DNA from: Halobacteriales archaeon QS_4_70_19
GTDB lineage: Archaea; Halobacteriota; Halobacteria; Halobacteriales; Haloarculaceae
Assembly (NCBI GenBank): GCA_003020985.1
Contig: PXRM01000026.1
Location: forward strand, 30,982-94,981
Length of the DNA: 64,000 bases
Direction of reading: 5' to 3'
Each line of letters starts with the position of its first letter. The first letter of the stretch is position 1. The notes under the pieces were generated by a model. It had not been told where the DNA came from, did not search any database, and saw only the letters and a program-made list of their open reading frames with translations. A program made the translations under genes and the position numbers. Below are positions 6,314-21,617 of this stretch, one piece after another.

Positions 6314-7369
6314 TCACCCGAAGACAGCGTGCAGCGCCGTCAGCAGCCACCAGAGGCCGCCGACTGCCACGAGCCCGCCGAACACCTTCGTCAGGGCGAC
6401 GTTCCAGTCCGCCGGTTCGATCTCGTGTTTCGGGGTCTTGCTCCCGATGGCGTCGAGCTGCTCCTGGAACCGCGCGATCGCGTGGGCGTACCGGTAGATC
6501 GCCACCCCGCCGAGGAGGACGACGGGTCCCAGCACCAGGCCGCCGGGTGCCGGGCTCTCCCGGCTCGAGACCGGGCCGTCGTCGTCATCGGGGTCGGCCG
6601 GCGGCGTCGGCCCGTCGAACAGGTCCGACTCCGTCGGCGTCGGGGTCGGTGGCGTCCAGGCGCCGACGGCGATCTCGTCGAGGTACGCCCGCGACCGGAG
6701 TTCGACGTTCCAGGTCGCGTTCGTGGTGCCCGTCGCGGCGGTCACGTCCCACTCGTCCGGCGGCCGGGTGGTCGCCTCCTGCACGCCGACGCGGACCGTC
6801 CCGTTCGACTCGAACCGCACGGTCAGGTCGAAGAAGCGGCCCGAGGGGGCGGTCAACTGCGTCCGGGTGGTGTCGCTCGTGCCCGCCGGCCGGACGACGA
6901 CGGCCACGGACGCGTCGTTCTCGCGGTCGACGTTCGTCACTGCGACCGAGGCCGCCGGCACACCGGTCTCGTTCCGTGCGACGACGCGGACGGCGCCGTC
7001 CTCGCCGGGGTCGACGGTCGCGCGGAGGACGCCGCGGTGCCCGTCGAGGGTGGTCGCGGTGAGCGTCGCCGACCCGTTCGTCACGGCCAGCGAGCAGTCG
7101 CCGTTCGCGCCGATGGGGAGCAGCTCGCCGCCGGTCCAGTCGCCGGCGGTGTCGTTCGCGAGCCCGGCAGCGTAGTCGTACTCGCCGTCGAGGTAGTTCA
7201 GGTGGCCGCTCCCGTCGCGGAACTCGCAGCCGTCCGGTTGCGGGGCGACTGTCGAGGCCGGGGGGTCTCCGGTGGGGCCGGCGCTCACCGTCGCCGCGCT
7301 CGCCGCGACCAGCACGGCGACGACCAGTGCGAACGCGAGGCTCGGAACGAGGGGGTCTCGGGCGTGCAT
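6314..7369 (-). CDS. Secreted/membrane-anchored hypothetical protein
   Basis: 351 residues, ATG at 7369 chosen because it opens directly into a signal peptide (residues 1-29, ending near VSA-G). The middle is a beta-rich, Asn-X-Thr/Ser-containing ectodomain of about 220 residues that could be N-glycosylated. A Pro/Asp-rich linker follows, with transmembrane segments at about 277-297 and 327-349. No enzymatic motif is seen. It resembles haloarchaeal cell-surface proteins of unknown role. Confidence 0.72.
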   Translation of the reverse strand: MHARDPLVPSLAFALVVAVLVAASAATVSAGPTGDPPASTVAPQPDGCEFRDGSGHLNYLDGEYDYAAGLANDTAGDWTGGELLPIGANGDCSLAVTNGSATLTATTLDGHRGVLRATVDPGEDGAVRVVARNETGVPAASVAVTNVDRENDASVAVVVRPAGTSDTTRTQLTAPSGRFFDLTVRFESNGTVRVGVQEATTRPPDEWDVTAATGTTNATWNVELRSRAYLDEIAVGAWTPPTPTPTESDLFDGPTPPADPDDDDGPVSSRESPAPGGLVLGPVVLLGGVAIYRYAHAIARFQEQLDAIGSKTPKHEIEPADWNVALTKVFGGLVAVGGLWWLLTALHAVFG

Positions 7370-7441: not shown

Positions 7442-8260
7442 CTATCGGTACTCGTTGAGCCGGCGCTGCAGCCGCCGGGCCGCGTCGCCCGCCGCGTCGA
7501 AGTAGGCGTCCGGGTCCCGCGCGTCCTCGCCGGCGAAGACGATGCCGCGCGAGGAGTTGACCAGCCCGACGCCGTCGGCCAGGCCGTACTCGACGGCGGC
7601 CTCCGCGTCCCCGCCCTGCGCGCCCACGCCCGGGACGAGGAAGGGGAGGTCCGGGACGACCTCGCGGACCGACTCCAGCTCGTCCGGCGTCGTGGCGCCG
7701 ACGACGAGGAACACGTCGGCGGTCGCCGCCTCGTCCCACTCGGCGCAGCGCTGGGCGACGTACTCGTAGAGGCGCTTGTCGTTGCCGACGGCGAGGTTCT
7801 GGAAGTCCGCGCCGCCGTCGTTCGAGGTGCGCGCGAGGACGACCACGCCCGCGTCCGTGCGGAGGAACGGCTCCAGCGAGTCCCGCCCGAGGTACGGGTT
7901 GACGGTGATGGCGTCGGCGTCCAGCCCGTCGGAATCGAGCGCGCGGGCGTACTGGCGCGCGGTGTTGCCGATGTCCCCCCGTTTCGCGTCGAGCAGGACG
8001 GGGACGCCCTTCCCGTGGGCGTAGGCGACCGTCTCCCGGAGCGCGCGCCAGCCGTCCGGGTCCTCGTAGAACGCGGCGTTGGGCTTGTAGCAGGCGGCGT
8101 ACTCGTGTGTGGCGTCGATGATGCGGCGGTTGAACGCCCAGCGCGGCAGGTCGTGGTCGGCCACCGCGTCAGGGAGGCGGTCCGGGTCGGGGTCGAGTCC
8201 GACCGAGACGACGCTGTCGACCGCCTCGATGCGGGCCCGGAGGTCCTCACGGAAGCTCAT
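7442..8260 (-). CDS. pyrF: Orotidine-5'-phosphate decarboxylase
   Basis: 272 residues, ATG at 8260. Catalyses OMP to UMP, the last step of pyrimidine synthesis. The catalytic tetrad motif LLDAKRGDIGNTA is at about residues 87-99. 'FLVPGVGAQGGD' and 'NSSRGI' form the phosphate-binding loops. The length and the N-terminal 'VSVGLDPD' fit the family-2 PyrF subgroup. It is divergent from the HAD gene at 8383. Confidence 0.95.
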   Translation of the reverse strand: MSFREDLRARIEAVDSVVSVGLDPDPDRLPDAVADHDLPRWAFNRRIIDATHEYAACYKPNAAFYEDPDGWRALRETVAYAHGKGVPVLLDAKRGDIGNTARQYARALDSDGLDADAITVNPYLGRDSLEPFLRTDAGVVVLARTSNDGGADFQNLAVGNDKRLYEYVAQRCAEWDEAATADVFLVVGATTPDELESVREVVPDLPFLVPGVGAQGGDAEAAVEYGLADGVGLVNSSRGIVFAGEDARDPDAYFDAAGDAARRLQRRLNEYR

Positions 8261-13169: not shown

Positions 13170-13255
13170 GACGGGTTGATGACGGGTCGATGACGAGTCA
13201 ATGACGGGTTGATGACGGGTCGATGACGAGTCAATGACGGGTCGATGACGAGTCG
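13170..13255. repeat. 11-bp minisatellite with 33-bp superperiod
   Basis: Eight consecutive near-copies of an 11-bp unit, ATGACGRGTYR (first copy lacking two bases). The variants cycle ...GGGTTG / GGGTCG / GAGTCA, giving a higher-order period of 33 bp. It lies between the PhyH gene and a small minus-strand gene and has no spacers, so it is not a CRISPR array. Confidence 0.9.
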
Positions 13256-16041: not shown

Positions 16042-16148
16042 CGTTCTCTCACCCGTAGCGGCCGCTATCGCGACGGTTCGACCGCCGACCATCCAGCGCC
16101 GTCACCCCCTGCCGACGACCGACCCGTGGCGACGGCCCGCGACCGGGC

Positions 16149-16394
16149 TCAGGACTGGAACGGCTCCTCGTCCCGGTGGTTGTCGGGGTTCTCCTGCGCC
16201 TCGGCCGCGTTCCGGCGCTCCAGATCCTCGTTGCCGGTCATCTCCTCCTGCTCCTCCTGTCGGACGCGTTCGGCCTCCGCGAGTTCCTCCTCGTGTTCCG
16301 CTTCCTCTTTTTCCTCCTCGTGTTCCGCTTCCTCTTTTTCCTCCTCCTCCATCCCGGGGACCACGTCGCGGTCGTGCTGGTCGTTATCGGTCAT
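16149..16394 (-). CDS. Small Glu-rich repeat protein
   Basis: 81 residues, ATG at 16394. The centre is almost pure Glu/Lys/Ala/His and contains two tandem EEEKEEAEH repeats, encoded by a 27-bp DNA repeat. The C-terminus (ENPDNHRDEEPFQS) is conserved-looking. A single charged alpha helix or a disordered tail is likely. Not recognised. Confidence 0.6.
   Translation of the reverse strand: MTDNDQHDRDVVPGMEEEEKEEAEHEEEKEEAEHEEELAEAERVRQEEQEEMTGNEDLERRNAAEAQENPDNHRDEEPFQS
16284..16337. repeat. 27-bp tandem repeat inside coding sequence
   Basis: Two exact 27-bp copies (16284-16310 and 16311-16337) and a partial third. The period is a multiple of three, so copy changes lengthen or shorten the Glu-rich helix of the encoded protein without frameshift. 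Confidence 0.85.
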
Positions 16395-17823: not shown

Positions 17824-18202
17824 CGGCGGCAACCACTGGAACGTCCAGTGAACTCCTTCCGCTCCGTATATCCGGACACGTTTGCGCTCGTTACACCTGG
17901 TATTGACAGGATATTCGGCCGTGGAACGTGCGTAACCGGTGGCTGGGAACAGTTCGTCCTGTCCGTCGTCATCGACTCGGATAGTTACTATGTTATCGAC
18001 ATATATCGAAATTATGTGGTAGAAAGATGAGATAATATATCTATACCGGGCAAAGGCACCTTCTCGGCCCCTTCCCGTCCCAGTCCTCTCCGGCGAGGAC
18101 CAGTCGAGATGACCGAGCCGACTGAACTGCCAGGATAGCACAAGCTAGCAGGCATTAACACAACCAAAATTGTTTTGTGCTCCACGCTGCTTTCATTACG
18201 CC
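17824..18202. other. A+T-rich intergenic region before the cob operon
   Basis: 379 bp without a gene. The stretch 17990-18045 is unusually A+T-rich (repeated TATCGA and ATATAT motifs) and probably holds the promoter of the minus-strand gene. Nearer cbiT, an imperfect inverted repeat, CACAA (18159-18163) and TTGTG (18175-18179), flanks A/T-rich sequence 24-44 nt before the cbiT ATG and may be an operator. I see no cobalamin-riboswitch B12-box-like sequence. Confidence 0.45.
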
Positions 18203-18802
18203 ATGCCGAGGGTAGCGCTTCCCCACGACGCGAAGGCGGGACCGACGAAACCGGAGGTTCGGGCGGTCACACTATCGAAACTGGCGCTCGACCCGGCGGA
18301 CCACTTCGCCGAGGTCGGGTCCTGCACCGGCGCGGTGACCGTTGAGGCCGCGCGGCGCGCCGGTCGGGTAACGGCGCTGGAACGCAAGCCCGAGCGGCTG
18401 GCGACGACGCGGAAGAACCTGGCCGCGAACGGCGTCCCCGTCGCGGAGGCATCGGAGTCGGCGGTCGCCACCGACGGCGGCGCCGCGGCGGCCGACCCCG
18501 CGCCCGTCACACTCCGCGAGGCCGAGGCCCCCGCGGGGCTCCCGGACGACGCCGACGCGCTGTTCCTGGGCGGGAGCCGCAACTACGCGGCCGTCCTCGA
18601 CCACGCCGTCGAGACTGGCGTCGGGACGGTCGTGATGAACGTCTCCCGGCTGGAGGTGGCGGGCGACGCCGTCCGGGCGTTCCGCGAGCGCGACCTCCTG
18701 GACGAGGTCTGCCAGTTCCAGGTGAGCCACGGCTACGAGCTGGCCGGCGCGACGAGCTTCGACGCGGACAACCCGGTCTACTGCATCGTGGGGAGCGCGT
18801 GA
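18203..18802 (+). CDS. cbiT: Cobalt-precorrin C15-methyltransferase/decarboxylase
   Basis: 199 residues, first gene of the corrin operon. CbiT acts at the precorrin-7/8 stage, methylating C15 and decarboxylating the C12 acetate. 'FAEVGSCTGAVTVEAARRAG' (residues ~35-55) is the SAM-binding motif I, with Cys where many relatives have Gly. 'DALFLGGSRNYAAVLDHA' is the conserved second half. The partner CbiE is a separate gene at 35876. The stop overlaps the cbiL start. Confidence 0.93.
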   Translation: MPRVALPHDAKAGPTKPEVRAVTLSKLALDPADHFAEVGSCTGAVTVEAARRAGRVTALERKPERLATTRKNLAANGVPVAEASESAVATDGGAAAADPAPVTLREAEAPAGLPDDADALFLGGSRNYAAVLDHAVETGVGTVVMNVSRLEVAGDAVRAFRERDLLDEVCQFQVSHGYELAGATSFDADNPVYCIVGSA

Positions 18803-19659
18803 CCCTCTACGGTGTCGGCCTGGGCCCCGGCGACGCGGGCCTGGTCACGGTGCGGGGCCGCGAGGTGTTGCAGGAGGCCGAGGTGGTCTACTCGCCCGGC
18901 CGGCTCTCCCGGTCGGTCGCGACCGAACACGTCCCCGAGTCGCGCATCGGCGACCTCGACTTCCCGATGACGCGCGACGAGGAGGAACTGCGGGCGGCGT
19001 GGCGGGAGGCCGCCGCGGAGATCGCCCCGCCGGCCCGCGACGGGACCGTCGCGTTCGTCACGCTGGGCGACCCGAACGTCTACTCCACCTTCGGTCACCT
19101 CCGCCGGACGCTGGACGCGTTCCACCCGGACGTGGCCCTCGAGGTGGTACCGGGCGTGAGCGCGCTCACCGCGTTCGCCACCGCGCTCGGGGTCGAGGTC
19201 GCCGCGGGGTCGAGCATCGCGCTCCGCGAGGCCGCCCGCGGCGCCGCCCCGACCGGCCCGGACCGGATGGTCCTGTTCAAGGTGACCGACGCGCCCGCCA
19301 CCCACGCCGGCCTGACGGAGGCGGGCTACGAGGTGACCTACGGCCGCCGGCTGTTCATGGAGCAGGGTGAGACGCTCGTCACGGACGACCCGACGGCCCT
19401 CGACGAGCGGGACTACTACACGCTCGCGTACGCCGAGCGCCCGGAGGCCCGCGTCGAGCAGGCCACCGACGCGGAGACGGTCTCCTCCATCGGGAAGGAC
19501 CTCGAGGAGCTGATCCCCCTGACCCGCAGGCGGCCATCGACGAGGCGTCGGCCGCCCGCGCGACCGAGCGCGACCCCCGCGTGTACGACTACACGGCCGG
19601 CGACGACCAGGAGGGAATCCCCTTCGTCGGCGCCGGCCCGGGCGACCCGCGGCTGCTGA
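18799..19659 (+). CDS. cbiL: Cobalt-factor II C20-methyltransferase, abnormal C-terminus
   Basis: 286 residues as read. Residues 1-221 are a normal CbiL/CobI tetrapyrrole methylase: start 'LYGVGLGPGDAGLVTVRG', loop LGDPNVYSTFGHLRR, and EVVPGVSALTAFATALG. It would methylate C20 using SAM. From residue 222 the sequence is TDAETVSSIGKDLEELIPL, a segment that belongs to CbiF and is encoded by a 59-bp duplicate. About 45 Arg/Pro/Thr-rich residues then read the wrong frame of cbiF's 5' end. The native C-terminus and stop appear to have been replaced. The catalytic core is intact, so it may still work. Confidence 0.85.
   Translation: MTLYGVGLGPGDAGLVTVRGREVLQEAEVVYSPGRLSRSVATEHVPESRIGDLDFPMTRDEEELRAAWREAAAEIAPPARDGTVAFVTLGDPNVYSTFGHLRRTLDAFHPDVALEVVPGVSALTAFATALGVEVAAGSSIALREAARGAAPTGPDRMVLFKVTDAPATHAGLTEAGYEVTYGRRLFMEQGETLVTDDPTALDERDYYTLAYAERPEARVEQATDAETVSSIGKDLEELIPLTRRRPSTRRRPPARPSATPACTTTRPATTRRESPSSAPARATRGC
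19464..19522 (+). repeat. 59-bp direct repeat, copy A (in cbiL tail)
   Basis: Identical over 59 bp to 19748-19806, 284 bp downstream. Copy A is foreign to cbiL: it encodes the CbiF peptide and joins directly to cbiF-like N-terminal codons in a different frame. Confidence 0.95.
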
Positions 19660-20396
19660 CGGTCGCCGGCCGCGACCTGCTGGCGGAGGCGGACCTCGTG
19701 GTCCACGCCGGCTCGCTGGTCAACAGCGAACTCCTGGAGGCGTACTGCACCGACGCGGAGACGGTCTCCTCCATCGGGAAGGACCTCGAGGAGCTGATCC
19801 CCCTGATGCGGGACTCCTACGAGGCCGGCGAGACGGTCGTCCGCCTCCACAGCGGCGACCCGGCGGTGTACGGCGCCGCCCTCGAACAGATGGACGCGCT
19901 GGAGCACGAGGGCGTCCCGACCTACATCGTCCCCGGCGTCACCTCCGCGTTCGCCGCGGCGGCGACGCTGCGCACTCAGCTCACCCTCAACGGCGCGGCC
20001 AACCACGTCGCCTTCACCCGGCCACAGGGGAAGACCCTCGACGCCGAGGACGACCACATCGCGGACTTCGTCGGGATGGGCGACGTGACGACCTGCATCT
20101 ACCTGGGGACCCACGCGGTCCCGGAGACGATGGACCGGCTCGTCGACGACGGCGTCGACCCCGAGACGCCCGTCGCAGTCGTCTACCACGCCTCCTGGCC
20201 CGACGAGGACGTCCTGACGGGGACGGTCGCGACCATCGGCGGCGAGATCGAGGCCGCCGGCTACCGGGCCTCGGCGATGGTGGTCATCGGCGACGCCGTC
20301 GGCGCCGGCGACTACGAGCGGTCCTACCTGTACGGCGGCTGGGCGAACCGTGGCGAGGACGGCGGAGACGGCGATGAGGAGGTGGAGGCCGACTGA
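19581..20396 (+). CDS. cbiF: Cobalt-precorrin-4 C11-methyltransferase (5' end disturbed)
   Basis: 271 residues from a GTG at 19581. SAM-dependent methylation of C11. Motifs: 'GIPFVGAGPGDPRLLTVAGR', VVHAGSLVNSELLE, RLHSGDPAVYGAALEQM, YIVPGVTSAFAAAATLR. Homologous-looking N-terminal codons (DPQAAIDEASAARATERDPR) run upstream in frame to 19521 and then break at the 59-bp duplicate with no ATG or GTG, so the natural start has been lost. Translation may start at 19581 or by re-initiation from cbiL. Confidence 0.88.
   Translation: MYDYTAGDDQEGIPFVGAGPGDPRLLTVAGRDLLAEADLVVHAGSLVNSELLEAYCTDAETVSSIGKDLEELIPLMRDSYEAGETVVRLHSGDPAVYGAALEQMDALEHEGVPTYIVPGVTSAFAAAATLRTQLTLNGAANHVAFTRPQGKTLDAEDDHIADFVGMGDVTTCIYLGTHAVPETMDRLVDDGVDPETPVAVVYHASWPDEDVLTGTVATIGGEIEAAGYRASAMVVIGDAVGAGDYERSYLYGGWANRGEDGGDGDEEVEAD
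19748..19806 (+). repeat. 59-bp direct repeat, copy B (native, in cbiF)
   Basis: Native location: the encoded TDAETVSSIGKDLEELIPL continues smoothly into the conserved CbiF sequence MRDSYEAGETVVRLHSGDP. Confidence 0.95.
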
Positions 20397-20429
20397 TGCG
20401 GGGAGTCGGTTCTCGCTCGGTACGGCGAC

Positions 20430-20570
20430 GACGGGAACGGGATAGTCTCGGAGCCCCCGCCCGCTCGACGGTCCGGGTCTCGCTGCGGTCCTCGTCGCTC
20501 ACTCCGTTCGCTCCGGCGGTCCTTGCGTCGTCCGGGACCGGTCGAGCGGGCGGCCCCTTCCATTCCCACC
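20430..20570. repeat. Hairpin element 1 (cbiF-cbiG spacer)
   Basis: About 141 bp. The right end, GCCCCTTCCATTCCCACC (20553-20570), is the exact reverse complement of the left end of element 2 at 24612. The left end is a diverged version. Inside, CCCGCTCGACGGTCC (20460-20474) pairs with GGACCGGTCGAGCGGG (20535-20550). The sequence between contains GAGCGA/AGCG-type runs and CGACGCAAGGA (reverse strand), also shared with element 2. An open frame over it (20396-20614) is not protein-like. Confidence 0.75.
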
Positions 20571-20621
20571 TGAGTCGGGTGGTGCACCGAGCAGCGCGGG
20601 CGGAATCACGGTGAGTACGAC

Positions 20622-21617
20622 ATGAGCACGGACAGCAACAGCGGCACGGCGGACGACGCATCGGACGACAGCTCGGGCGGGCACTGCTCGACCCCGGACA
20701 GCGACGGCGAGGTGGCCGAGGAGATCGCCATCGTCGCCTTCGAGCGCAAGTGGGACACCGCCGAGGAGATCCGCGAGGGCATCGGCGACCGCTACGAGGC
20801 CATCGACCTGCTCGAGTACCACGGCGACGTGTTCGCCGAGCACTGGGGCGAGTACGACTGCTTCGTCGGCCTGATGGCCAGCGGCATCGCGATGCGCAAG
20901 ACCGCCGGCCTGCTCGACGACAAGTGGGAGGACCCGGCGGTCGTCGTGGTCGACGAGGAACTGACGTGGGCCATCCCGCTGACGGGCGGTCACCACGGTG
21001 CTAACCAGGTGGCCGACGACCTCGCGTCGATGGGTGCGGTGCCCGCGATGACCACCGCCAGCGAGGCGGCCGGCAAGCAGGGCGTCGAGGAGCGCGCGAG
21101 GGCGCTGGACGCCCACGTCGTCAACGGCGACTCGACGGTCGCGACGAACCTCGCCGTGCTGGACGAGGAGCTGGGACCGGTCGCCCGGCTGGACGGCCCT
21201 GCGGCGGTCGTGGCTGACGACGACGTGACGGTCCTGAAGCGCAACTCGGACGACGGCGTCGTCCTCGGGACGGGGAGCGTCGCGGGGGCCGACGCCGAGC
21301 AGTTCGAGGCGGCCTGGCGCGAGGCGCTCGACGGGACGGACTACACCCTGGCCGACGTGGAGTTCGTCGCCACGGGCACCCGGAAGGCCGAGGAGGCGGG
21401 ACTGCTCGAAGCGGCCGAGCAGTTGGCCCTCGGCGTTGTCGCCTTCGAGAAGGACACGCTGGAGGAGTTCGAGGGGCCGACGCCGTCGCGCTCGCGTGAA
21501 CTCATCGGCTGGCCGGGTATCGCGGAGGCGTCGGCCATCGCCGGTGGCCGCGAGCACGACCTGCTCGTCGAGAAGACCAGCCACGAGGACGCCGTCACGG
21601 TGGCGGTCGGCCGATGA
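20622..21617 (+). CDS. cbiG: Cobalt-precorrin-5A hydrolase
   Basis: 331 residues. Opens the delta-lactone ring and releases acetaldehyde. A Ser/Asp-rich N-terminal tail (~30 residues) precedes 'IAIVAFERKWDTAEEI'. 'YDCFVGLMASGIAMRKTAGLL' and LTGGHHGANQVADDLA are the conserved CbiG N-domain motifs. The C-domain (from ~225) carries 'VEFVATGTRKAEEAGLLEAA' and 'GWPGIAEASAIAGG'. The stop overlaps the next start by 4 bp. Confidence 0.93.
   Translation: MSTDSNSGTADDASDDSSGGHCSTPDSDGEVAEEIAIVAFERKWDTAEEIREGIGDRYEAIDLLEYHGDVFAEHWGEYDCFVGLMASGIAMRKTAGLLDDKWEDPAVVVVDEELTWAIPLTGGHHGANQVADDLASMGAVPAMTTASEAAGKQGVEERARALDAHVVNGDSTVATNLAVLDEELGPVARLDGPAAVVADDDVTVLKRNSDDGVVLGTGSVAGADAEQFEAAWREALDGTDYTLADVEFVATGTRKAEEAGLLEAAEQLALGVVAFEKDTLEEFEGPTPSRSRELIGWPGIAEASAIAGGREHDLLVEKTSHEDAVTVAVGR

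Follow-up and report, generated by a model that had tools for sequence, protein, structure and literature searches.

At the junction of the cobalamin genes cbiL and cbiF in the window, the 64,000-bp stretch of DNA from Halobacteriales archaeon QS_4_70_19 analyzed here, a 59-bp segment at the end of the cbiL core is an exact copy of a segment of cbiF, and it stands where relatives carry the native linker of the two genes. We consider this duplication to be, with a probability of about 0.7, a local assembly error in which the linker was bridged with cbiF sequence from 284 bp away. Both genes belong to a run of cobalamin genes at 18.2-22.5 kb, namely, cbiT, cbiL, cbiF, cbiG and a cbiH-like gene, and the features of the junction are the following.

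18799..19659, + strand: cbiL frame, with an intact core followed by the cbiF piece, then by the out-of-frame cbiF leader and a stop inside cbiF
19464..19522, + strand: first member of the exact 59-bp repeat pair, where the cbiL core ends
19464..19473, + strand: left join, CACCGACGCG, a 10-bp identity: these bases are native to cbiL in Haloglomus halophilum (L036), and the cbiF piece begins with them too
19474..19520, + strand: 47 bp foreign to the cbiL-cbiF junction, at the place of 146 bp in H. halophilum (L036) and H. irregulare (L037) that hold the CbiL tail, the cbiL stop and the cbiF start
19521..19522, + strand: right join, GA, which could belong to the copied piece or to the native cbiF leader
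19581..20396, + strand: cbiF, taken from the first available GTG, with a complete methylase core, the native ATG and the start of the leader missing
19748..19806, + strand: copy 2 of the 59-bp exact repeat, native within cbiF and in place in L036 and L037 with few differences

The identity of 19464-19522 and 19748-19806 extends over all 59 bp, with a spacing of 284 bp start to start, exactly as an earlier, sequence-only reading of this DNA had reported. A chance origin is ruled out by codon shuffles of positions 18001-21000, in which the longest exact repeat was 17 bp (n=200), and no other non-tandem exact direct repeat of at least 24 bp within 3 kb was found in the window. Two further exact direct repeats of this length and range are both tandem (13170-13242 and 16284-16346, with periods of 33 and 27 bp, respectively). 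The assignment of the two genes in the same reading agrees with the best family-profile matches and with the reading frames. CbiL, the cobalt-factor II C20-methyltransferase, matches NF004063 over residues 1-227 with 440 bits (cut-off 235); for CbiF, the probable precorrin-4 C11-methyltransferase, which is 91-92% identical to its Haloglomus relatives, the best model is TIGR01465, matched over residues 14-252 with 243 bits, below the cut-off of 259.65. The CbiL frame continues to the stop at 19657-19659, and in the CbiF frame no ATG, GTG or TTG follows the stop at 19368 until the GTG at 19581.

The direction of the copying becomes apparent from comparison with relatives. Among three genomes of the same genus, Haloglomus, two, G002 and G003, have this cbiF at 91-92% identity, and the third has only a distant match; the best two named loci are those of H. 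halophilum and H. irregulare. In both, cbiL has another tail beyond the TDA motif and ends in a stop that overlaps the ATG of cbiF (ATGA), after which comes the cbiF leader; 146 bp separate the shared CACCGACGCG (CACGGACGCG in H. irregulare) from this leader, versus 47 bp in the window. Because CACCGACGCG is native in cbiL of H. halophilum, the left join falls within a 10-bp identity between cbiL and cbiF and, given that GA at the right join fits both sides, the foreign part is 47 bp (19474-19520) rather than 59. Since 146 - 47 = 99, the relative frame of cbiL and cbiF is kept. The earlier claims that the second copy is the native one and that cbiL has lost its natural stop and cbiF its natural start hold up against these relatives; the loss itself is larger than had been described, amounting to some 146 bp of native linker as judged from the two loci, and by this alignment the 47-bp piece replaces the linker instead of being a mere insertion.

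The wider set of haloarchaea presents the same picture. In 79 of the 80 named loci cbiL was counted as adjoining cbiF (L042 was dropped, having no cbiL match and 119 bases before its cbiF match), and these loci share gene order, frames and the two enzyme cores with the window; their normal junction differs from it in the CbiL tail, which extends 11-87 residues beyond the matched core. The longest exact match between the spacer and the cbiF body is 14 bp among these 79 relatives versus 59 bp in the window. The overlap of the cbiF ATG with the cbiL stop measures 4 bases in 30 of the 79 loci and 8 bases in 26 (56/79 together); by the same rule, 10 of the 79 have no cbiF ATG, so its absence by itself does not set the window apart. 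When a 24-mer spanning the right join was searched for with as many as 3 mismatches allowed, a single one of the 146 family genomes had it, namely, the source genome, in a collection with one genome per species. The fused CbiL tail (residues 215-286), searched alone, was found in none of 437 protein candidates at E <= 0.001.

Near-identical sequences from other assemblies were compared at the protein level. A CbiL encoded on a JGI contig of 11,052 bases (P0001), with 99% identity over 79% of the query, has the normal tail AFVEAG...DEVSR, and one encoded on an ENA contig of 20,886 bases (P0016), with 100% identity over 69% of the query, has the same normal far tail; the cbiF piece is present in neither. 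Therefore, near-identical strains carry the native tail. The P0016 protein is 43 residues shorter, with a different gap that is located between two VTD motifs at this same end of the gene, so another assembly is also irregular at the end of cbiL. On the cbiF side, a protein 96% identical to CbiF (P0121) has the leader MSDAPGSDAADDAPTDPQAAIDEASAARATERDPR, which is equal to that of the window from DPQ onward.

The sequence-only reading had named finding the same arrangement in relatives as the sign that it is old and normal. The arrangement was seen in none of the 79 relatives and in none of the 145 other family genomes, P0001 has the normal tail, and nothing was found in favor of such antiquity, so we rejected this explanation, to which we assign next to no probability.

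The draft assembly of the source genome (G000) comprises 46 contigs with 2,838,640 bases in total and is 81.9% complete; 81 of its stretches including the window, 1,522,939 bases in all, were read, and 800,000 bases of G003 and 400,000 bases of G002 served as controls. Two patches similar to that in cbiL are present in the same draft. On contig C1, 16963-17061 of L117 is an exact 99-bp copy of 16142-16240, 821 bp apart, and replaces 131 bp that are found in L258 and L259; the copy begins with GAGGAGACGG, which is identical in L258 and has one mismatch in L259. The patched downstream gene, which resembles those of thiamine-diphosphate enzymes, is frameshifted and stops after 235 codons versus 566. 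On contig C16, 1823-1873 of L248 is an exact 51-bp copy of 2416-2466, 593 bp apart, which takes the place of 39 unrelated-looking bp in L273, with the frame kept; some 50 bp present in L273 are missing directly behind the second copy. The gene affected here is one that we take to be methyltransferase-like. The three distances, 284, 821 and 593 bp, would be on the scale of read-pair inserts.

The background rate of such repeats has to be taken into account. In the 1.52 Mb read of the source draft there are 4 isolated exact repeats of at least 50 bp within 3 kb (59, 99, 99 at a contig end, and 51 bp). The near-complete G003 has 2 in 0.8 Mb, of 88 bp and of 72 bp, the latter as part of a tandem array, and the near-complete G002 has 2 in 0.4 Mb, of 77 bp and of 110 bp, the latter as part of a repeat cluster. 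A genome-wide excess of local repeats was accordingly discarded as proof of an artefact, the count per Mb being no higher than in these two near-complete Haloglomus genomes; because G002 and G003 have them too, isolated local repeats alone are no sign of error. Among the control repeats, the sequence around one copy of the 88-bp repeat (L153), that at 7452, is conserved in G002, and the other copy is outside the main match; the region of the 77-bp repeat (L213) is unmatched to its G003 neighbourhood in the match table; the 110-bp repeat (L203) lies within a cluster of other repeats at similar spacing; and the 72-bp repeat (L221) lies within a tandem array. The source draft also has non-local isolated repeats of 74-88 bp and, at 11303-14497 of L195 (G000:C20:31303-34497), a CRISPR-like array with 49 exact copies of a 30-bp repeat in steps of about 65 bp.

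An exact 99-bp overlap with another place in the stretches read was found at 11 of the 46 contig starts and 8 of the 29 contig ends examined (19/75 termini), and the other terminal overlaps of at least 20 bp range from 23 to 85 bp; exact 99-bp terminal overlaps are what de Bruijn assembly leaves. At 7634-7732 of L134, the end of contig C18 repeats positions 7008-7106 of the same contig stretch exactly over 99 bp. Runs of N in the draft have lengths of 7, 13, 75 and 171 and may be scaffold gaps or masked stretches. A step of 20 up to 100 is the default of IDBA-UD, and the MEGAHIT ladder also contains 59, 79 and 99. The length 99 is seen as a terminal overlap, 59 falls with it on one ladder of step 20, and the 51-bp patch is off this ladder; the source draft may have been made by a step-20 assembler of this kind. 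According to the relevant passages of the respective papers, contig-end overlaps often equal n or n-1, where n is the largest k-mer (Chen et al. 2020, PMC7111523), and a published IDBA-UD run used a maxk of 100 with a step of 20 (PMC8204110).

Taken together, an assembly patch is the best single explanation because it accounts for the lengths of 59 and 99 bp, the draft state of the genome, the destroyed gene in L117 and the native tail in near-identical sequences; thus, where the sequence-only reading had placed a templated insertion or gene conversion beside an assembly join without choosing, the evidence leans to the latter. Under this scenario, the assembler would have met a stretch that it could not read and bridged it with sequence 284 bp off. 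The left contig would have been extended into cbiF at the 10-bp identity, would have ended one assembler overlap length (59) later and would have been joined directly to a contig starting in the cbiF leader, with the linker omitted, so the living organism would have the normal cbiL stop and cbiF start. A common origin of all three patches (59, 99 and 51 bp) as local assembly errors likewise appears probable. Two observations speak against it, namely, that the 51-bp patch is off the ladder and that local repeats are no rarer in the two near-complete relatives. The passages of Chen et al. (PMC7111523) that deal with local assembly errors in short-read metagenome drafts offer a partial likeness: a short consensus unlike that of relatives in an otherwise ordinary gene region, and contig ends that overlap by one assembler length. 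There, such errors are defined by missing read support, and copying from a neighbour is not part of the description in those passages.

A real recent rearrangement, which we regard as unlikely, would have involved a template switch at the 10-bp identity into cbiF, the copying of 47 bp and a switch back, or else a 284-bp tandem duplication followed by deletion between 10-bp repeats, which yields the same letters. CbiL would thereby have gained a new tail, and the start of CbiF would likely be the GTG at 19581; such an event could be tolerated because both enzyme cores are intact and their relative frame is kept. The exact nearby copy, the short identities at the joins (10 bp on the left, 2 bp on the right) and the loss of native sequence are all features of microhomology-guided templated insertion, and isolated local exact repeats occur in the near-complete genomes of relatives as well. 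Moreover, Haloferax volcanii is able to join DNA at short identities, mutants with strong self-targeting being described in the relevant passages of the source as deleting by microhomology-mediated end joining (PMC7521656). By contrast, the normal tail in P0001 and the normal far tail in P0016, the fit of 59 and 99 to the assembler ladder, and the gene destroyed by the same kind of patch in L117 speak against a real event. Another route to the same sequence would lie in the library and not in the assembler: a chimeric molecule, formed when the polymerase jumped at the 10-bp identity within DNA of very high GC content, would have offered the best path across a linker with poor coverage. The native linkers of L036 and L037 are indeed 77-78% GC, and the identity at the left join is in place, but the folding of these linkers is no better than that of shuffled sequences (z 0.35 and -0.87), so DNA structure of the native linker as the cause of a jump is unsupported, and the lengths 59 and 99 are unexplained by such a molecule alone; we consider this route very improbable.

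As biology, a local assembly error of this kind is of low interest and, as a warning about drafts, of modest interest. If the duplication is an artefact, patches of assembler-overlap length can sit in the coding sequence of drafts, inventing chimeric protein ends and losing start codons, and an exact-repeat scan combined with comparison to relatives would catch them. Among the literature matches listed, none by title concerned an archaeal genome with short-range templated patching; if real, the junction would be such a case. Conceivably, although this appears quite improbable, all three patches are real, so that in this Haloglomus strain template switching guided by microhomology would often place copies of 50-100 bp from less than 1 kb away in neighbouring genes; the cbiL-cbiF junction would then be a live case in which one methyltransferase gains a tail and its neighbour a new start.
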